Under the pieces are notes generated by a model. It was not told the DNA's origin, did not search any database, and was given only the letters and a program-made list of their open reading frames with translations. Positions 2,089-37,591 of a stretch of 64,000 nucleotides of DNA are shown here, piece by piece. Each line of letters begins with the position of its first letter. Position 1 is the stretch's first letter. The position numbers were made by a program, and so were the translations under genes. This DNA is from Nitratifractor salsuginis DSM 16511 (lineage in GTDB: Bacteria; Campylobacterota; Campylobacteria; Campylobacterales; Sulfurovaceae). The stretch spans positions 1,674,001 through 1,738,000 of the forward strand of contig NC_014935.1 of assembly GCF_000186245.1 (NCBI RefSeq), written 5' to 3'.

Positions 2089-3050
2089 GAGCTAAAGCGG
2101 TTTTTCGGGTTGCTAAAAATCCTCTATAGCTTCGGTAATATAGGGTCTAAAAAGGACTTTTTTACAGATGGCTTGTAAAAAAGTGCCCTATATGCGGTTC
2201 CCGGCAGACGAAAAAGAATGGGAAAAGAGCCGGAATTCAGCGCTATTTTTGTTAAAGCTGTCGGCATGGCTTTTCTTCAAGTAGACGTCCTTCCCGAATA
2301 CAGAAACAACTTTTTATTGCCTACTTCTATGAACACCAAACCCTCAAAGCCTTATCCCGGACCTATCATAAGGATCGGGAGTGGATTCAACGTCAGATTC
2401 ATAGCTATGAACCGCAGAAGGCTTTACCTCGTCCCAGGCCGGTCACTTTGGTCATCGATGCGACATTCTTCGGAAAACGGGGAGAAGGCTTTGGTGTTCT
2501 TGTGGCCAAGGATGTTCTGAGTGGCCAACCAGTAGCGTATCGTTTTATTCAGACTGAGACACTCAATGAATATGCGATGATTCGTCAAAGCCTTCTCGAT
2601 CAGGGCTTTGTAATTCAGGCAGCGACCGTCGATGGCCGACGGGGATTATTCGGGCTCTTTGCTGATCTTCCGGTTCAAATGTGCCACTTTCACCAACAGG
2701 CGATATTGACCCGTTATCTTACGCGCAGACCCACCTATCAAGCTTCCAGGGATCTCAAACGTATTGCATCATATCTCGGCAAAACCACTCCCTGTCGTTT
2801 CCGTTATATGCCAGAAGCTTGGCTTCAGAGACACAAGGACTTCTATGAAGAGAAAACGGAAGATGATTCTCCTCGCGGATGGCACTACACCCACGATCGA
2901 CTCCGTTCAGCCTATCGAAGTCTTGAACGCAATCTTCTTTATCTTTTCACTTATAAAACTCATTCTCATCTTGGCATTGCCAATACGACCAATGCTCTGG
3001 ATGGGGGGCTCTTCTCTCCGATGAAATCCTTACTGAAAGTTCATCGGGGT
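2089..3050 (+). mobile_element. Decayed, 3'-truncated copy of an IS256-type element
   Basis: The left end starts GAGCTAAAGCGG, identical to the terminal repeat of the intact copy at 36546-37591, and close similarity continues to about 3050. There the two sequences part, and the right terminal repeat is missing. The copy therefore lacks roughly the last 85 bp. The transposase frame also carries an internal stop. It lies between an outer-membrane protein gene and the 5S end of the rRNA operon. Confidence 0.85.
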
Positions 3051-3071
3051 TCAGTGATACGTTTATATTGA
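2168..3071 (+). pseudogene. Transposase pseudogene (IS256 family, variant Zn-binding type)
   Basis: The frame encodes an N-terminal zinc ribbon (KKCPICGS, then RYFC) followed by the catalytic region with VIDATFFGKRGEGFG, TVDGRRGLFGLF and PVQMCHFHQQ motifs. Compared with the intact copy, a CAA codon has become TAA at 2253-2255, right after the second zinc-ribbon half begins. The C-terminus is replaced from about 3050 by unrelated sequence ending at 3071. As in the intact copy, the only ATG near the zinc ribbon (2168) is out of frame across a run of six A at 2177-2182. Non-functional. Confidence 0.85.
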
Positions 3072-3292: not shown

Positions 3293-3412
3293 CAGGGTGG
3301 CGTCGACCTACGTTCCCACAGACGTAGTCTGCAGTATCATCGGCGCTGAGAGGCTTAACTTCCGGGTTCGGAATGGAGCCGGGTGTGACCCTCTCGCCAG
3401 CGACACCACCGA
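3293..3412 (-). rRNA. rrf: 5S ribosomal RNA
   Basis: On the minus strand the GGTGGTGTCG end pairs with CGACGCCACC, closing the 5S helix I. The conserved internal CCGAACCCGGAAGTTAAG and GCGCCGATGATACTG segments are present. It is the last gene of the rRNA operon, about 125 bp after 23S. Ends are approximate to a few bases. Confidence 0.93.
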
Positions 3413-3508
3413 GAGAGAGAAACACATCGTAATGTGCTTGTCTCTCTCGGGAGAGGTAACTTAGTATTGTTAAGAGTCCGGGTAATGCATACACGATCAA
3501 ACGCTCAA

Positions 3509-3535
3509 GATGCACTGGGCAAGGTAGTGCCTAGA

Positions 3536-3546
<11 letters not shown>
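3509..3546 (-). other. 23S processing stem, 3' arm
   Basis: This stretch is almost perfectly complementary to 6429-6466, on the other side of 23S. The pair brackets the gene and would form the long helix cut by RNase III during pre-23S maturation, as known in other bacteria. Confidence 0.8.
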
Positions 3547-6428
<2,882 letters not shown>

Positions 6429-6436
<8 letters not shown>

Positions 6437-6466
6437 AATCTAAGGCACTACCTTGCTCAATGCATC
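6429..6466 (-). other. 23S processing stem, 5' arm
   Basis: Complementary to 3509-3546 across the 23S gene, including the CACTACCTTGC core; the likely RNase III substrate helix for 23S release. Confidence 0.8.
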
Positions 6467-6613
6467 ACGCATCAAACAATGTTGCTTCTGAGTGTTTCGC
6501 TTGGAAGAATTCTTCTTTCGAAGATTTCTGTTTACAGTGTAATTGTTCGCAAATTCTTTTTCAAGTCTTTGCGGCATTACGTCAGACTCTTAACAATGCT
6601 AAGTTAAATAACC

Positions 6614-6656
6614 TTAGACCGAAGTCTAATTGAAATCTTCCGCAAAAGATTTCAAT
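6614..6656 (-). other. Two back-to-back hairpins in the tRNA-Ala/23S spacer
   Basis: TTAGAC-CGAA-GTCTAA (6614-6629) is followed by a perfect 11-bp hairpin with arms 6629-6639 and 6646-6656 and a 6-nt loop. They lie just downstream of tRNA-Ala in the transcript and may mark a spacer processing site. Confidence 0.6.
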
Positions 6657-6667
6657 CAAACTTCACC

Positions 6668-6743
6668 TGGTGGAGAATGCCGGGATCGAACCGGCGACCT
6701 CCTGCGTGCAAAGCAGGCGCTCTCCCAGCTGAGCTAATTCCCC
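6668..6743 (-). tRNA. tRNA-Ala (anticodon TGC)
   Basis: The minus strand gives a full 76-nt cloverleaf with encoded CCA: acceptor GGGGAAT, D-arm AGCTCAGCTGGGAGAGC, anticodon loop CTTTGCACG, T-arm GGTTCGATCCC. It lies 5 nt after tRNA-Ile in the 16S-23S spacer, the usual arrangement. Confidence 0.97.
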
Positions 6744-6748
6744 ATCTC

Positions 6749-6825
6749 TGGTGGGCGTACCTGGACTTGAACCAGGGACCTCACCCTTATCAGGGGTGCA
6801 CTCTAACCGGCTGAGCTATACGCCC
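6749..6825 (-). tRNA. tRNA-Ile (anticodon GAT)
   Basis: A 77-nt cloverleaf with encoded CCA on the minus strand: acceptor GGGCGTA, anticodon loop CTGATAA, T-arm GGTTCAAGTCC. First tRNA after 16S in the rRNA operon spacer. Confidence 0.97.
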
Positions 6826-6854
6826 TCTTTCTCTACTCTCTCAAAGAACACGCT

Positions 6855-6897
6855 GTGATCTTTGACAACCGAATATCGGCTCACAATCAACCGTCTA
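6855..6897 (-). other. 16S processing stem, 3' arm
   Basis: Complementary, with few mismatches, to 8550-8593 in the operon leader. The pair brackets 16S and should form the RNase III stem of the pre-16S RNA. Confidence 0.82.
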
Positions 6898-6948
6898 CCC
6901 TCAGGGCTCTGACGACACTCCCGTGAGAAAGTGCCGTGCGTACTCTTG

Positions 6949-8466
<1,518 letters not shown>

Positions 8467-30815: not shown

Positions 30816-31700
30816 CTATCTTTTCTCTATCCCCTCGAAATGAGCCGTAACGGCTTCATGAACCTCCGGAAGCCGATTCCTATCCCAGGGCACGGCAAGC
30901 CGATAGACGGGAAGTGCTCGGGCCATATCACTGAAATAAGCGAAACGTTCCCGCTTCAGAAAATCAAAATCGACGAATGCACTCTCGTAGAGCGCTTTGA
31001 ATTTCCCGATGCCCTGTAACGCTTCGATCTCTATATCGGTTCCGGTATTGATTCGCTCCAGCCTATAGAGAGCCCGGATCTCTGCAGGTCCCGAAGCGAA
31101 GTTTCCGGCCTGTTCCCCCAACGATTCGACTTTTCGGTAGGGTCGATGAAAAGGGTAGGAGGGAATGGCATAGTAGGTAGAATCTCTTTTTTCTATCGCC
31201 AAAGCATCGTCGGAAAAGAGCCTATGCCCCCGTTTCAGAAAATAGCCGGTCAAGGTCGATTTGCCACCGTAGGATGGAGCAGTGAAAACCAAAGCGCTTC
31301 CCCCCACACTCACCGCACCGGCGTGGAGCATCCGCCATCGCCCCTCCAGTTCGAAGACCAGTGGCAAAAAGGCATGCAGCACCCAGTAGCGTAGTTTTTG
31401 GGAGGTAAAGTGTTTTCCTCGGATGTACTCGACCCTCCGCTCTTCCGGTTGCCAGATCAATGTGACGAGATCCTCGATCTCCAATCCCCAGCCCAGTAAC
31501 GGATCGGCCGCATGGATGGGCCGGTCACAGAGATAACGGGCCCGGCGCCCCCACAACTCGACCCAGGGGCTTTTGAGCAAAAAAGGCTTTTGAAGCATGC
31601 TCCGCTCCCGCACCTGCAAAAGTGACATCTCTCCATCATCGTTGGAAGCAGTCAAAAGGGATTCATCCCCAAAACAAACTACATAATTAAAACTCTTCAC
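30816..31700 (-). CDS. HprK-related kinase
   Basis: 294 residues from the GTG at 31700; an ATG at 31784 would overlap the small Tat-peptide gene completely out of phase and is less likely. The C-terminal half has the features of the HPr kinase fold: a P-loop in APSYGGKSTLTGYFLKRG (about residues 141-149) and an acidic LFSDDALAI strand. There is no HPr gene nearby, and the N-terminal half is unlike HprK of Firmicutes. This fits the HprK-related kinases found in loci with NTP_transf_5-type nucleotidyltransferases and small peptides. The substrate is unknown; the Tat peptide and the upstream proteins are candidates. It begins 34 bp after the peptide gene. Confidence 0.72.
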   Translation of the reverse strand: MKSFNYVVCFGDESLLTASNDDGEMSLLQVRERSMLQKPFLLKSPWVELWGRRARYLCDRPIHAADPLLGWGLEIEDLVTLIWQPEERRVEYIRGKHFTSQKLRYWVLHAFLPLVFELEGRWRMLHAGAVSVGGSALVFTAPSYGGKSTLTGYFLKRGHRLFSDDALAIEKRDSTYYAIPSYPFHRPYRKVESLGEQAGNFASGPAEIRALYRLERINTGTDIEIEALQGIGKFKALYESAFVDFDFLKRERFAYFSDMARALPVYRLAVPWDRNRLPEVHEAVTAHFEGIEKR

Positions 31701-31734: not shown

Positions 31735-31944
31735 TTACGGAAGCCAGCCGCCGAAGGGAGGCGGAGGCGGCCCACCTGTTCCATCGGCGTGCGCCACCTC
31801 CGGTTTGGCCAATTGCCCCAAAGCGATCAAAGACGGCGCAGACCAGGCAGCTCTCTTCAGGAAGTGACGTCTCGACCTGGAAAGTTTTTCTCCTTTTCTT
31901 CCCGAAACTTTTTCCGTAATCCCTAAAGCCTTTTTAGGTCCCAT
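31735..31944 (-). CDS. Small twin-arginine-signal peptide, 69 residues
   Basis: The N-terminal 30 residues are basic. They are followed by SRRHFLKR, a good twin-arginine motif, a hydrophobic stretch (AAWSAPSLIALGQLA) and a probable cleavage site after AHA. What would remain is only DGTGGPPPPPFGGWLP, a glycine/proline tail. Two stops in tandem end the gene. It overlaps the upstream lipoprotein gene by 11 bp and precedes the HprK-like kinase gene. The unusual size of the mature part suggests a precursor peptide or a cargo whose tail is modified, but no function is known. The extra 20 residues before the RR motif are longer than usual for a Tat signal. Confidence 0.7.
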   Translation of the reverse strand: MGPKKALGITEKVSGRKGEKLSRSRRHFLKRAAWSAPSLIALGQLAKPEVAHADGTGGPPPPPFGGWLP

Positions 31945-32713
31945 CCTGATTCCCTTTTATTGTTGGAGGCTTGCTCAGATCAAACTTGACCTTCTTCTCT
32001 TGCCTTATGCGTTCTACCCTCTTCCACAGGCTTGAAGTTCCCTTTTCCTCTGATACGGCAGCTTCGGTAGCCATATTTTCTTCAGTCAAAAGTTCCCAGC
32101 GAAAGGTCCGGCTGTGGCTTCCAGTCATAGCGAATGTGATGGAGTTCATCTTTCCCTTCGTTATCACCGGGACTGTTTCTCCGCTCTTCATGTCTACCAC
32201 CCGCATCTTTTTCAGGAGAGGATTGGTCAGAGATCGGTGTTCCCGATAGCGAATGCGCCCCGTTTCGTCTGTATAGGACTCTAATACATAGAGCCCTCGC
32301 CAGCTCAGCGACACTTTGCCGCTGTAGTCTGCATCCGCTCGAACGGTAAAGGTCCATTCATCGGTTTGCCCGGGCACACTCTCATGAAAGCTGCTCTTGT
32401 ATTCGCCGGGCTCCACACCATCGGGATCGACAAAGACGATATCGAGATAGCTTCCGCCAAAGGGACTCAAGGCTTTGAGGGTATGTCGCTGTTCAGCGTC
32501 GCCCTCCTCCACAGCACCCAACTGGGCATCGGCCGACTGAAGCCCCCGTTCATCCCGTGCCACCAATCGAACGGACCACTGGGAAGCCTCTTTCTCCACC
32601 GTTACGAGTTTGCCCGATCTTTTCGGAGCATCGCCGGCGGTATTACCTCCCCTACCACATCCAACGAGCAGGACCACACTCAACACGATAATAAGAGATA
32701 TTACTTTTTTCAT
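31934..32713 (-). CDS. Predicted lipoprotein of unknown function
   Basis: 259 residues with a lipobox LVGC at residues 16-19. After a short linker there is a beta-rich middle with SGKVSLSWRGLYVLES and many charged residues, and a helical, lysine-rich end. I do not recognise the family. It lies 7 bp after the large lectin/LamG-like gene and overlaps the Tat-peptide gene, so all four minus-strand genes are likely one transcript. It probably sits in a membrane facing the periplasm or outside. Confidence 0.72.
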   Translation of the reverse strand: MKKVISLIIVLSVVLLVGCGRGGNTAGDAPKRSGKLVTVEKEASQWSVRLVARDERGLQSADAQLGAVEEGDAEQRHTLKALSPFGGSYLDIVFVDPDGVEPGEYKSSFHESVPGQTDEWTFTVRADADYSGKVSLSWRGLYVLESYTDETGRIRYREHRSLTNPLLKKMRVVDMKSGETVPVITKGKMNSITFAMTGSHSRTFRWELLTEENMATEAAVSEEKGTSSLWKRVERIRQEKKVKFDLSKPPTIKGNQDGT

Positions 32714-32720
32714 CGGTGTT

Positions 32721-35105
32721 CTACTCCTTCGGGATCAGTAGTTTGATCGTTTTACCCTTGCTCGGGCCGTGCAACTCCACCCAGAATCCCTTGTAGGGTT
32801 CGAGTTTACAACTACCCGGAGTCGTATCGTCACAGGTGGTGTACCCATTACTGTCGGCATTGCCGTCGCCGGGATTATATTGCCAAATCTGTTTAGAACC
32901 GTACCCCGCATTTTCAAAAGCACTCGGCGTATAAGCAGCCCCGTCGACGATAAAACGGCAGTCAGCCCAATCCACAGGCGACTTGCCTACAAAACCGGTC
33001 ATATTGTATCGATAAGGACCCGTCCCATCATCGGGATCATTGTCGGGAGGGCCGAAATTCAGTGAAACGCTTTTGAGGTCAATTTCGACGCAGCGGGCAG
33101 CGGGGCAGTCGGGGTTGGTCGAATTGTAATCGACCGCCACTGCACCGTTTTCGCTCCAACGACTGTCCAGTTTACTCCCCAGCCAATAGGCTTTTCCGAA
33201 TTCCAGCGGATCATTGGTGTCAAGAAAGGTATACGAGGATGAGTTATTGCTGTCACTGTAGTCCCTACGATAGACCCGCCAATCTGTCCCATACGTTCCG
33301 TTCATATCATCACCGAAAATGTCCGCGACTGTCTTTTTGGTATTGTTCGGGTTTCGGAAATCGGCGGGAATACCGACCAGCTCCCAGGTATTAGCCGCGA
33401 TGGAAGCGCTGCAGCTCACCGGCTCCCTGCTTGTGCCATCATAATTCTTCCCGCTGGATTCGTTATTGTAAATTTCCTGGATCTCCTGGGCACTCAGTGC
33501 CCGATTCCAGAGTTTAACCTCATCGACTTTTGTTGAAAGAGTTTGTCCCGTTACATTATCATCACTGGTGAAAAGATACATAAAATCACCATCGGTTCCC
33601 AGATCTATGGAGTCGATGAATTGACCGTTTATATAAAGATCGGTAGTATCGTCACTATGTTTCACAAAAGTAACCATCTTCCAACCAGCATCGTTGATAC
33701 TGTCATCGAGATCCTGTACAGTCAAGTCTCCATCTTCATCATATACTGCCCATCCCAAATCTGTACCATCAAGCGTAAAGGCCGGGAGGTCCCCTCTCCC
33801 ATTCAATGAACCGGTCGAAAAATAGTAATCAAAACCCAATGAATCACTTGAAAAGTCCTGATGCCCTGCTGCATCAAGTGGGAACTTCATCCAGAGAGAA
33901 AAGGTCCATTCCGATGAGATTGAAATCGAATTTTCTGTTTGTGCATAACGATCTGAAACGAAATCACCGCTGAAATTCACAATAGCATCGTTCCGGTCTG
34001 GCTGTGCATCGTTGTAGGCTTCCGCATCGTTCCCTCCAACCGAATCGATCACATCGAAATTGCCGCTTCCCAGCCAGTAACACTCATCAAGACGGTATTC
34101 GGCACTTAAATCACAATGTGTTGTATTGACGGTTGAATCGTAGGTGAAATCTTCAGAAAATATGAGCAGTCCCGCATTTTCACCTTTTCCGTGTTTCCGG
34201 TTCCTATACACATCCTCATCCACGGTCACCCCGATTTGGGTTTCGCTGAGACTGCACCGTCGCAGCCAACCCCCATCTCCTCCATTTCTTGTCTGCATAT
34301 TACCGATCACATTGGGAGCGCTGCTATAGGCCTGGTTAAAATCCTGGATATAACATCCGTTATCCCACCCTTTCACATCCGTTATCAAATCCGTTTCATA
34401 AGCGATTTTCCGACAAGTGCCATTGCTGTCATAGAACACTCCGGATACGCCTTCCGGTATAGCCAGATAGGCAATCGTTTCGTTGCTTTTTATCGTACCC
34501 TCATCTGTTTTGACCATATCCAGAGCCGTATCAAAACCATCCAAATCGATATTACTTATCGCCGTCACCATCCAGGGAACGGAAACATCCCCAGGAATTT
34601 GATTCTGCTCGTTATTCACCGTTTGGATCATCCCTAGGACAATCGGGGTCGATGCAAAAGAGGAGGAAAAAGTTACCGTTTCCCAACTCCTTCCCGAAGT
34701 GTTTTTCCCCTGATGCGCGGTGGTATCAACTGTCCCCGCTATGATCTTCGTGCCATCCGGCAGTGTATGCTCTCCCGCATCCATTGCCAAATAGTGAATG
34801 GGCATCATTTCGGGGTGGGGGCCATCCTGCCCCTCTGCTTCTACCTGCACGATATCGAAGCCCGTAGTCGTTACATTTTTGATGCGCAGTGCCGCCGGGT
34901 CATCCCCGTCATAGCCGCTCCCTTCGTTGGGCATGGCAAAGACCAGCGGCGCAGCATCATAGCTCTGCTTGAAGGTCACGTGCTGCCACGTCGTCGAACC
35001 CGTTGTCGTCTCGGGAAGGGTAATCGTCCCACTCTCCATTTTCCATCCAAAGAGTGATAAAGGGAGTAGTACCAGAATAAAAAGTAATGTGATAATTTTT
35101 TTCAC
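32721..35105 (-). CDS. Large secreted protein with MshQ/H-lectin-like repeats and a LamG domain
   Basis: 794 residues with a signal peptide ending PLSLFG. The first 320 residues hold three similar beta modules with the pattern HVTF..SY.AAPLVFAM, RIKNVTTTGFDIVQVE, resembling the H-type-lectin-like modules of MSHA MshQ proteins. Around 390-560 is a LamG/concanavalin-like domain (WTFSLWMKFPL, TDLYINGQFIDS, VDEVKLWNRALSAQEIQEIYN). The rest has paired cysteines and a repeated aromatic pattern (ANTWELVGIPADF, GKAYWLGSK, YKGFWVELHG). A surface adhesin or pilus-tip-like role is inferred. First gene of the four-gene unit. Confidence 0.78.
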   Translation of the reverse strand: MKKIITLLFILVLLPLSLFGWKMESGTITLPETTTGSTTWQHVTFKQSYDAAPLVFAMPNEGSGYDGDDPAALRIKNVTTTGFDIVQVEAEGQDGPHPEMMPIHYLAMDAGEHTLPDGTKIIAGTVDTTAHQGKNTSGRSWETVTFSSSFASTPIVLGMIQTVNNEQNQIPGDVSVPWMVTAISNIDLDGFDTALDMVKTDEGTIKSNETIAYLAIPEGVSGVFYDSNGTCRKIAYETDLITDVKGWDNGCYIQDFNQAYSSAPNVIGNMQTRNGGDGGWLRRCSLSETQIGVTVDEDVYRNRKHGKGENAGLLIFSEDFTYDSTVNTTHCDLSAEYRLDECYWLGSGNFDVIDSVGGNDAEAYNDAQPDRNDAIVNFSGDFVSDRYAQTENSISISSEWTFSLWMKFPLDAAGHQDFSSDSLGFDYYFSTGSLNGRGDLPAFTLDGTDLGWAVYDEDGDLTVQDLDDSINDAGWKMVTFVKHSDDTTDLYINGQFIDSIDLGTDGDFMYLFTSDDNVTGQTLSTKVDEVKLWNRALSAQEIQEIYNNESSGKNYDGTSREPVSCSASIAANTWELVGIPADFRNPNNTKKTVADIFGDDMNGTYGTDWRVYRRDYSDSNNSSSYTFLDTNDPLEFGKAYWLGSKLDSRWSENGAVAVDYNSTNPDCPAARCVEIDLKSVSLNFGPPDNDPDDGTGPYRYNMTGFVGKSPVDWADCRFIVDGAAYTPSAFENAGYGSKQIWQYNPGDGNADSNGYTTCDDTTPGSCKLEPYKGFWVELHGPSKGKTIKLLIPKE

Positions 35106-35224: not shown

Positions 35225-35261
35225 ACCGGATGCAAACCGGCCCATCCAACCCCCAACCTAA

Positions 35262-35289
35262 AATCCAAAATCCAAAATCCAAAATCCAA
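35262..35289 (+). repeat. 7-bp repeat, four units of AATCCAA
   Basis: Four exact heptamers lie between the promoter and the preferred GTG start of the nucleotidyltransferase-like gene. If the ATG at 35230 were used they would be translated as NPKSKIQNPKSK-type sequence. Confidence 0.85.
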
Positions 35290-35292
35290 GAA

Positions 35293-36531
35293 GTGCACAC
35301 TCTCTCCCGGGAGCTCCGTCTCCTCATCGCCTGCTGCCAGGCAAAGCCGTCACAAGACGACATCGATTTGATCCTCGACACGATCCGGGACCCGAAATTC
35401 GACATTCAAAATCTGCTGGAGCTCTCGAGCCGGCACGGGGTCCTTCCCCTGGTTTACAAAAATCTCAAAGCGATCGAGAAATCGATCCAAACCTCTTCAT
35501 CCCAGAATGACACACCCCCAACCCAAAATCCAAAATCCAAAATCCGGAATCTCCTTATCGAGCTCAAGCCACGATACTTCGCCATCGTCCAGAGAAATAT
35601 CCTGATGTCCGCAGAGCTCATCAAAATCTTTCGCCTGCTCCGAGAGAACGACATCGAAGTACTGGCTTTCAAAGGCCCTACCCTCGCACAGATCGCCTAC
35701 GGCGATATTACTCTGCGACAGTTCGGAGACCTGGATATTCTGATCCACCGCAAAGATTTCCGAAAGATCGCTTCACAAATGACCGAAAAAGGGTATGAAC
35801 CTCGTTTTCCGATCGAAACATTCACGGGGGACAAAGTCATGTTCGAGATGAACAATGACTGCCCCTTCTATGACAGGAAACGCGGCCTGGCCATCGAAAT
35901 CCACTGGGATTTTTTTCGCAAGCTGGCCCTGTCGACCCAGAAACTCCAACCCTGGGAAGAAACGGCTCAGGTCACCATCAACGGCTCGGCGATCCCAACG
36001 CTCCGGTACGAAACTCATCTACTCTATCATTCACTCCATGGCTCCAAACATATCTGGGAACGCATGTGCTGGATCGTCGATATCGACCGTTTCATCCGCA
36101 ACGTACCGGATCTAGACTGGGACGACATCATCGACAGGGCCAAAGAGCTGGGAGCGCTGCGGATGTTCCTCCTCGGCCCGGCGCTTGCCCGGTATTTTTT
36201 CAACACGCCGCTGCCTGAAAAAATAGAAAAACTCTGCCGACAAGCCCGTTTCGACAACCTCATCGCTTTCGTCGTCGACGAATTCAAGTGGGAGAACCCC
36301 ACACCCGAAGACAGTCTCGTCAAACTGAAAAAGGTCATCGCCCTGCGCGACAATCTCTATTATAAGACTTTTACTCTGCTGGAGTTTCTCTTCCGTCCCG
36401 GGATCAACGAACGCAGAACGATCGTTCTAGCGGACAATCTTTTCTGGCTCTACTGGCCCCTGCGGCCGATCGGAATGGTGTATCGTTTCCTCTTCTGCCG
36501 TCTTATGAAACTGTGCGAACAGCGAGATTGA
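35293..36531 (+). CDS. Nucleotidyltransferase-like protein (NTP_transf_5 type)
   Basis: 412 residues from the GTG at 35293, chosen because the promoter's -10 ends at 35224, leaving the ATG at 35230 almost at the transcript start. The MNT-like core is visible as VLAFKGPTLAQIAYGD followed by RQFGDLDILIHRKDF (GDxD metal motif near residue 145); a basic, aromatic C-terminal half follows. This matches the poorly characterised family often found next to HprK-related kinases. Three AATCCAA heptamers are read in frame at 35527-35547, giving QNPKSKIRN inside the protein. The gene is divergent from the lectin/Tat-peptide/kinase unit and ended 3 bp from the glycosyltransferase stop before the IS entered. 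Confidence 0.78.
   Translation: MHTLSRELRLLIACCQAKPSQDDIDLILDTIRDPKFDIQNLLELSSRHGVLPLVYKNLKAIEKSIQTSSSQNDTPPTQNPKSKIRNLLIELKPRYFAIVQRNILMSAELIKIFRLLRENDIEVLAFKGPTLAQIAYGDITLRQFGDLDILIHRKDFRKIASQMTEKGYEPRFPIETFTGDKVMFEMNNDCPFYDRKRGLAIEIHWDFFRKLALSTQKLQPWEETAQVTINGSAIPTLRYETHLLYHSLHGSKHIWERMCWIVDIDRFIRNVPDLDWDDIIDRAKELGALRMFLLGPALARYFFNTPLPEKIEKLCRQARFDNLIAFVVDEFKWENPTPEDSLVKLKKVIALRDNLYYKTFTLLEFLFRPGINERRTIVLADNLFWLYWPLRPIGMVYRFLFCRLMKLCEQRD
35527..35547 (+). repeat. In-frame 7-bp repeat inside the nucleotidyltransferase-like gene
   Basis: AATCCAA, AATCCAA, AATCCGG, with a CCCCAACCC-rich lead-in. The 21-bp length keeps the frame and adds about seven residues, QNPKSKI. Confidence 0.85.
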
Positions 36532-36545: not shown

Positions 36546-37591
36546 GACTTAAAGCGGGTTTTCGGGTTGCTATTTCATTGCTTTTTCTAGGAAATCAGTG
36601 ATGAGTTTCTTCTTCATAGAGTCTCCAATACCCCGATGGATTTTCAATAAAGCTTTCATAGGAGAGAAGAGTCCACCATCCAAAGTATTGGTTGTATTGG
36701 CTATGCCAAGATGAGGATGGGTTTTATACGTGAAGAGATAAGGAAGATTGCGTTCAAGACTTCGATAGGCCGAGCGGAGTCGATCATGGGTGTAATGCCA
36801 TCCACGTGGAGAATCGTCAGGGGTTTTCTCTTCATAGAAATCTTTGTGCCGTTGGAGCCAGGCTTCCAGCATATAGCGGAAACGGCAGGGGGTTGTCTGT
36901 CCAAGATAGGAAGCGATACGCTTGAGATCCCTAGAGGCTTGATAGGTAGGTCTGCGCGTCAGATAACGAGTGAGAATGGCTTGTTGATGGAAATGGCACA
37001 TTTGAACCGGAAGGTCGGCAAAGAGCCCAAACAATCCCCGTCGGCCATCGACGGTGACGGCCTGGATGATAAAGCCCTGATCCAGAAGGCTTTGCCGAAG
37101 CATCGCATATTCATTGAGCGTCTCAGTCTGAATGAAACGATACGCTACCAGTTGGCCACTCAGGATATCTTTAGCTACAAGAACACCAAAGCCCTCTCCC
37201 CGTTTTCCGAAGAATGTCGCATCGATAACCAAAGTGACCGGTCTGGGATGTGGTGAAGTCTTTGGCGGTTCATAGCTATGAATCTGACGTTGAATCCACT
37301 CCCGATCCTTATGATAGGTCCGGGATAAGGCTTTGAGGGTTTGGTGCTCATAGAAGTAGGCAGTAAAGAGTCGTTTTCTGAGGCGGGAGGGACGTCTACG
37401 AGAAGAGAAGCTCTGCCGGCAACTTTGGCAAAAATAGCGCTGAATTCCTGCTCTTTTACCATTCTTTTTCGTCGCTTTTGAACCACAGATAGGGCACTTT
37501 TTTACAAGCCATCTGTAAAAAAGTCCTTTTTAGGCACCATATTACCGAAGGTTTAAAGGATTTTTAGCAACCCGAAAAACCGCTTTAGCTC
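36546..37591 (-). mobile_element. Intact IS256-type insertion sequence (1046 bp)
   Basis: Terminal inverted repeats of about 27 bp begin GACTTAAAGCGGG (left) and GAGCTAAAGCGGT (right, read inward) and share TTTTCGGGTTGCTA. A perfect 8-bp direct repeat flanks the element. One transposase frame fills it on the minus strand. Size, repeat length and 8-bp duplication suit the IS256 family. Recent insertion is implied by the perfect duplication. A truncated relative lies at 2089-3050. Confidence 0.93.
36570..37511 (-). CDS. Transposase, IS256 family variant Zn-binding type
   Basis: The frame is open over 313 codons from the codon at 37511. It encodes a zinc ribbon (KKCPICGS ... YFCQSC) and then a DDE catalytic domain with VIDATFFGKRG, VDGRRGLFGLF and MCHFHQQAILTRYL. 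No ATG, GTG or TTG exists in this frame before the zinc ribbon. The nearest ATG (37512, MACKK) is in another frame and joins correctly only if one A of the six-A run at 37498-37503 is skipped. The remnant copy has the same run, so slippage may be part of expression. It ends in the left terminal repeat. Confidence 0.85.
   Translation of the reverse strand, partial: WLVKKCPICGSKATKKNGKRAGIQRYFCQSCRQSFSSRRRPSRLRKRLFTAYFYEHQTLKALSRTYHKDREWIQRQIHSYEPPKTSPHPRPVTLVIDATFFGKRGEGFGVLVAKDILSGQLVAYRFIQTETLNEYAMLRQSLLDQGFIIQAVTVDGRRGLFGLFADLPVQMCHFHQQAILTRYLTRRPTYQASRDLKRIASYLGQTTPCRFRYMLEAWLQRHKDFYEEKTPDDSPRGWHYTHDRLRSAYRSLERNLPYLFTYKTHPHLGIANTTNTLDGGLFSPMKALLKIHRGIGDSMKKKLITDFLEKAMK

Follow-up and report, generated by a model that had tools for sequence, protein, structure and literature searches.

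Why would a bacterium dedicate a complete twin-arginine (Tat) signal to a cargo of 16 residues? Tat is normally the pathway of folded proteins, and it accepts cargo that has been finished post-translationally. The question is raised by a small gene of Nitratifractor salsuginis, a bacterium of marine vents (genome of a single contig, 2,101,285 bases), located in the stretch of 64,000 nucleotides that we analyzed, hereafter the window. We favor, with moderate confidence, the reading that this gene encodes a RiPP-like precursor, which would be read at its leader by a PqqD-family protein, modified by an HprK-like kinase, exported by Tat, and cut after its AHA site.

The small gene and its surroundings

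The gene is an ATG-initiated ORF of 69 amino acids on the minus strand, located exactly at positions 31735-31944 and ending in TAATAA. Its translation, MGPKKALGITEKVSGRKGEKLSRSRRHFLKRAAWSAPSLIALGQLAKPEVAHADGTGGPPPPPFGGWLP, has no match in Pfam or NCBIfam. The sequence features of a Tat substrate are present: a twin-arginine motif (SRRHFLKR, with R25-R26 at 31867-31872, minus strand), a hydrophobic region (residues 32-45), and an AxA site (A51-H52-A53, 31786-31794, minus strand), the predicted signal peptidase I site. What follows is a tail of 16 residues, DGTGGPPPPPFGGWLP (residues 54-69, 31738-31785, minus strand), the putative core peptide, with a Thr at its position 3 (31777-31779, minus strand). 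The same genome encodes TatC (E 2e-70) and signal peptidases of the Peptidase_S26 family (E 2e-34). An earlier note on this DNA had described the Tat motif, the hydrophobic segment, the AHA site, and the 16-residue tail, all of which the ORF bears out; it missed the RRE motif, the HprK-like kinase, and the family described below.

Directly upstream lies the gene of a lipoprotein (31934-32713, minus strand), whose stop codon shares bases with the ATG of the small gene (ATGGGACCTAA). Since AAAAGGGA is also located 5' of this ATG, translational coupling between the two genes is plausible. The AF2 model of the lipoprotein has a pLDDT of 84.8 and found no fold match in the PDB. Next comes a secreted surface protein (32721-35105, minus strand) with Pfam matches to an H-type lectin and a LamG-like domain, and with a C-terminal domain that is conserved across cassettes and for which a fold search gave no convincing match. 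As the small gene overlaps that of the lipoprotein and the GTG start of the kinase (position 31700) lies just downstream, a single operon seems to comprise the genes of the surface protein, the lipoprotein, the small peptide, and the kinase. We recognised neither a receptor nor a response regulator or sensor kinase in the cassette. The divergent neighbor (35230-36531, plus strand) is a nucleotidyltransferase (NTP_transf_5, PF14907, E 5e-65). In relatives, this gene is part of the cassette form found in EPS loci, and nucleotidyltransferases (PsmN, LppN) accompany the kinase in known phosphopeptide clusters; its membership in the window's own cassette is uncertain. The beginning of its ORF (35230-35560) has NPKSKIQ-type repeats that look as if an intergenic repeat had been included in the reading frame; the gene may really start at a more internal position.

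Elsewhere in the window, there are two copies of an IS256-variant transposase of the Zn-binding type (2218-3071 and 36570-37486), each apparently split over two frames, and an rRNA operon with 16S, two tRNAs, 23S, and 5S (3295-8465, minus strand). Between 40001 and 56000, where a polysaccharide gene cluster lies, the G+C content is down to 33-41%, compared with about 50-57% around it, which suggests that this cluster was horizontally acquired.

The small gene has two paralogues in this genome and, like each of them, adjoins its own HprK-like gene. We searched for further members with the small peptide within Campylobacterales and with a kinase alignment in named genomes, and then read the loci. 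The scan with the kinase alignment led to 56 loci, and a first genome scan with a single kinase sequence alone gave no match. The loci examined hold 42 distinct members, mostly from Sulfurovum and other Campylobacterota, the remaining ones being in MAGs labelled Thermodesulfobacteriota and Proteobacteria. This list was gathered with a motif filter, and the founding alignment mainly by similarity. When small Tat-like ORFs near kinases were scanned without the filter, 37 had the motif and 9 lacked it; the latter, judged by eye, look spurious. In plasmids, tblastn found no match to the small peptide of locus L023 and seven partial matches to the window kinase (23-45% identity). The geometry of the family is conserved: an RRxFLKK motif, a [Y/W]xxPx[L/I/V]xxxG block that begins nine residues from the first Arg, and an AxA 20 residues from the Tyr or Trp of this block. 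The latter spacing is held in 33 of the 42 members, with the cut placed by a scoring rule that favors AxA. The twin arginine is invariant in alignment A1, and a single one of the 42 members (L027) has KR in its place.

The loci are of three types. Type A, that of the window, has the surface protein, the lipoprotein, the Tat peptide, and the kinase, often with PqqD. Type B has the Tat peptide, the kinase, PqqD, and NTP_transf_5, and, wherever we read its surroundings, lies in a polysaccharide locus; the lipoprotein and the surface protein are missing from these EPS-locus cassettes, which retain peptide, kinase, and PqqD. Type C consists of true lasso clusters. In two loci, a Tat peptide and its kinase are joined to lasso genes, with two HprK-like kinases in each: L023 (9558-16565, genome G141), which also has a lasso precursor and PqqD, and L040 (4077-12944), which has no PqqD in 13 kb. 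Three polysaccharide-locus cassettes (L068, L069, and L075) encode a further Tat peptide, of at most 151 amino acids, with the same motif, and these additional peptides are partly rich in Asn/Gly/Ser or Thr/Gly repeats.

Leader block, kinase, and PqqD partner

Within its hydrophobic part, the Tat signal has the sequence WSAPSLIALG (residues 34-43, 31816-31845, minus strand). This block corresponds to [Y/W]xxPxLxxxG, the leader motif of lasso-type RRE (PqqD) binding, an identity that we took from the literature on lasso and linear polyphosphorylated peptide (LPP) precursors. P37, L42, and G43 are invariant in the alignment. The block is absent from all 44 Tat signals used as controls, in which even a [Y/W]xxP is lacking from that region; the effective number of controls is lower than 44 because most of them are paralogous redox enzymes. 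The two kinds of leader can be seen side by side in the cluster of L023, where the Tat peptide has YAAPALVTLG, and a lasso precursor has YAQPKLIVMG ahead of a lasso-like core; two kinases, the leader protease B2, a cyclase, an ABC exporter, and a single PqqD lie in this cluster as well.

The neighboring kinase (30816-31700, minus strand) is HprK-like, of the type that tailors lasso peptides and LPP. It has the C-terminal domain of HPr kinases, although its matches to Hpr_kinase_C (E 2e-4) and HprK_rel_A (TIGR04352, E 3e-8) both stay under the respective cut-offs, the latter with 33.2 bits where 200 are required. The His, GGKST, and DD of HPr kinases are conserved. In a tree made without four rows of uncertain assignment, the window-type (type A) kinases form a 100/100 clade of 21 sequences plus the kinase of a lasso locus, L049. 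Aside from the latter, window-type and lasso-locus kinases are in separate clades.

The genes co-occur across genomes. Among 397 genomes of the phylum, 12 have the peptide (our reading of the match list, small proteins kept), 20 have the kinase, and 47 have PqqD. Each of the 12 peptide genomes has both partners (p 5e-18 for the kinase and 2e-12 for PqqD, with no correction for kinship), including three where peptide and kinase are on separate contigs (G005, G041, and G251). The lasso protease B2 is absent from 11 of these 12 genomes, and none was found in that of N. salsuginis. Hence, PqqD and the kinase need another substrate in these 11 genomes. Eight genomes have the kinase without the peptide. 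Six of them have lasso genes in the short flanks of the kinase, and in a seventh (G206) the kinase looks the same, by length and overlapping ORF, as that of lasso locus L066.

These data bear on the simplest alternative, an ordinary Tat stub that is exported unmodified or serves as an N-terminal anchor, with the kinase acting on the lipoprotein or on the surface protein. The Tat signal is well formed, TatC is present, and both proteins are conserved neighbors of a peptide whose modification we infer. Yet, a stub would hardly account for the sequence conservation of the motif in the hydrophobic region, which sets it apart from the control signals, nor for the presence of kinase and PqqD in every peptide genome even when unlinked, nor for EPS-locus cassettes in which peptide, kinase, and PqqD persist without the lipoprotein or the surface protein. 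We find this explanation rather unlikely.

There is no PqqD within the 64-kb window. The genome encodes two, one in a paralogous cassette about 1 Mb away (L021) and the other 0.14 Mb away, so that PqqD would have to act in trans on the window peptide. In many relatives it adjoins the cassette. The PqqDs match the solved RREs of lasso and LPP systems, namely TbiB1 (6e-21), PbaB1, TfuB1, and LppB, and the columns of LppB D70 and F74 are invariant in all 14 PqqDs compared. D70 of LppB hydrogen-bonds the leader Tyr (numbering of PMC13381572). Between a Tat-peptide locus (L044) and a lasso locus (L060, whose precursor has WVTPQI), the PqqDs share 95% identity. In Tat-peptide and lasso loci alike, a thioredoxin-like protein with a signal-like N-terminus is encoded directly 5' of PqqD (L036 7182-7931, L041 4077-4880, L043 9017-9763, L044 2531-3295, L060 11742-12542, and L062 11488-12273).

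The block might also be a peculiarity of Tat signals in this lineage, associated for instance with a Tat proofreading chaperone. Its likeness to lasso leaders would then be coincidental, and PqqD and the kinase would come from lasso clusters, present or lost. The combination of both systems in L023 and L040, as well as the position of the L049 kinase inside the Tat-peptide clade, could be explained in this way. However, the 11 peptide genomes without B2 have both kinase and PqqD, the two sorts of kinases are otherwise separated in the tree, and PqqD directly follows the kinase in peptide loci that have no lasso genes (L022, L024, L037, L038, and most of L068-L077). This makes a coincidence quite improbable in our view.

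Tails, selection, and the proposed pathway

The window-type tails are short, contain Pro and Gly, and have a Trp in 19 of 25 cases. The earlier note had proposed a comparison of the tail in related genomes. We made it, and obtained a pooled pN/pS of 0.35 for the tails (Fisher p 5e-7) over five pairs of relatives that we had chosen; other pairs in the same groups gave values between 0.12 and 1.5 that rely on very few sites. As judged from the sequences, the family, including its tails, is under purifying selection and is more than a chance ORF.

A Ser or Thr is favored at core position 3: 14 of the 25 window-type tails have one there, compared with 29 of the 287 other positions scored (p 1.7e-7, which overstates the support since many tails come from related genomes). 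One of the 25 tails has no Ser/Thr. Kinases of this type are known to modify peptides. HprK-like kinases phosphorylate the C-terminal Ser of paeninodin and pseudomycoidin (PMC9266682), and there is experimental evidence of phosphorylation at core Ser3 for BsfA by BsfK, for which the YxxPxL motif is dispensable (PMC10368454), and for LppA by LppK, which rejects the S3T variant (PMC13381572). Since the window tail has Thr3 and LppK refuses Thr, the window kinase may have another preference, may act at another site, or may not phosphorylate the peptide.

Short, variable, Trp-containing tails with inferred export, co-encoded with a lectin-like surface protein and a lipoprotein, would also suit a pheromone- or ligand-type signal whose activity resides in the released Pro/Gly/Trp tail, modified or not. 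We regard this as very improbable, given that no receptor or regulator was recognised in the cassette; such a role would in any case be compatible with the RiPP-like reading and does not exclude it. Finally, the remnant or frameshift of a larger Tat protein, which the earlier note saw as what would undo its reading, and likewise an untranslated chance ORF, are hardly credible: short length is their sole argument, against 42 distinct members of like design and small size with conserved tails under purifying selection.

Among the four options raised in the earlier note, we thus favor the modified RiPP-like peptide, considering the adjacent kinase, the PqqD/RRE in all peptide genomes, and the RRE motif in the signal; the ligand, the pheromone-like product, and the membrane-anchored stub are less favored. 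The RiPP-like pathway could proceed as follows. The PqqD-family RRE protein would hold the precursor by the [Y/W]xxPxLxxxG block of its hydrophobic region, and, together with the HprK-like kinase, would modify it in the cytoplasm. The most likely modification is a (poly)phosphorylation of a Ser/Thr among the first core residues, possibly at Thr3 in the window copy. The whole N-terminal segment would then serve as a Tat signal, the modified precursor would leave via Tat, and signal peptidase I would cleave after AHA. The product would be a linear Pro/Gly/Trp peptide of 16 residues, released next to the lipoprotein and the lectin-like surface protein of the same cassette. A kinase that consumes ATP in the cytoplasm has to complete its work on the peptide before the latter leaves, and export by Tat is in keeping with this order. 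As the hydrophobic segment overlaps the RRE motif, PqqD binding and the use of TatC would have to be sequential. We give an even chance to the more specific idea that the RRE leader and the Tat signal are one and the same, with RRE binding retaining the precursor until the kinase is done and then releasing it to Tat.

If this is true, there is a Gram-negative route for cytoplasmically modified linear phosphopeptides that requires neither a dedicated protease nor an ABC exporter. It suggests an explanation for the 16-residue Tat cargo, a peptide that is probably first modified with ATP in the cytoplasm, and it supplies a candidate substrate for the pairs of HprK-like kinase and PqqD that lack lasso genes. 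In the open-access literature (subscription papers were mostly beyond reach), we found no description of Tat signals combined with RRE motifs, RiPPs, PqqD, or HprK-like kinases. The Tat export of a RiPP-like, modified small peptide is thus a combination for which we found no earlier description.

Comparison with known systems

The Tat signals of redox enzymes are held by maturation chaperones, such as NapD and TorD, until cofactor insertion is complete. In these systems, too, a cytoplasmic protein binds the Tat signal; here the cargo has 16 residues and the proposed binder is an RRE. A pairing of an HprK-like kinase with a PqqD-family partner is also typical of the HprK-related kinase A/HPr-rel-A PqqD and SynChlorMet systems (TIGR04352, TIGR04353, and TIGR04249), for which we found no paper in the open-access literature. 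However, the present kinase scores far below the curated cut-offs of HprK-related kinase A (33 vs 200 bits).

The phosphorylated lasso peptides, i.e., paeninodin (PadeK/ThcoK), pseudomycoidin (PsmK/PsmN), and Bsf, are closer, since they have the same type of kinase, the same type of RRE, and the same leader block. They differ by their B2 protease and cyclase, both absent from the present cassette, and by precursors that are not headed by a Tat signal. The Asp/Glu at positions 7-9 that closes the lasso ring is also missing, the window tail having no acidic residue after D1.

The other close system is that of the LPP (LppA/K/B/S/D/N), reported in 2026 (Nat Commun) and only from Bacillota (PMC13381572). 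Both have a linear precursor without cyclase, a discrete PqqD-like RRE, an HprK-like kinase whose gene adjoins the precursor, and a [Y/W]xxPx leader motif, and both are often encoded at polysaccharide loci together with an NTP transferase. The phosphosite of LPP, core position 3, is where the present tails favor a Ser/Thr. Yet, the LPP leader YxxPxVLxHQxIxFETxxS is not found here, where only [Y/W]xxPx[L/V/I] is common to both, and the present leader is a Tat signal with a Gly at motif position 10, which is lasso-like and unlike LPP. LPP systems have a dedicated LppS, whereas the cut at AxA is here predicted for the housekeeping signal peptidase: the best match of our genome to a SipW/archaeal-type LppS has 19 bits, for a cut-off of 51.85. 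Similarly, window-type cassettes have no MsbA-like ABC exporter, except those fused to lasso clusters; signal peptidase I would stand in for LppS and Tat for the exporter. Taxonomically, the members of the present system come from Campylobacterota and, in a few cases, from other Gram-negatives. As it lacks the LPP leader motif, LppS, and LppD on one side, and the lasso B2 and ring acid on the other, we class it apart, as a variant rather than as a member of either. By analogy, it would work like the LPP pathway or like a phosphorylated lasso pathway minus the ring, and, if our reading is true, it extends phosphorylated linear RiPPs beyond Bacillota.
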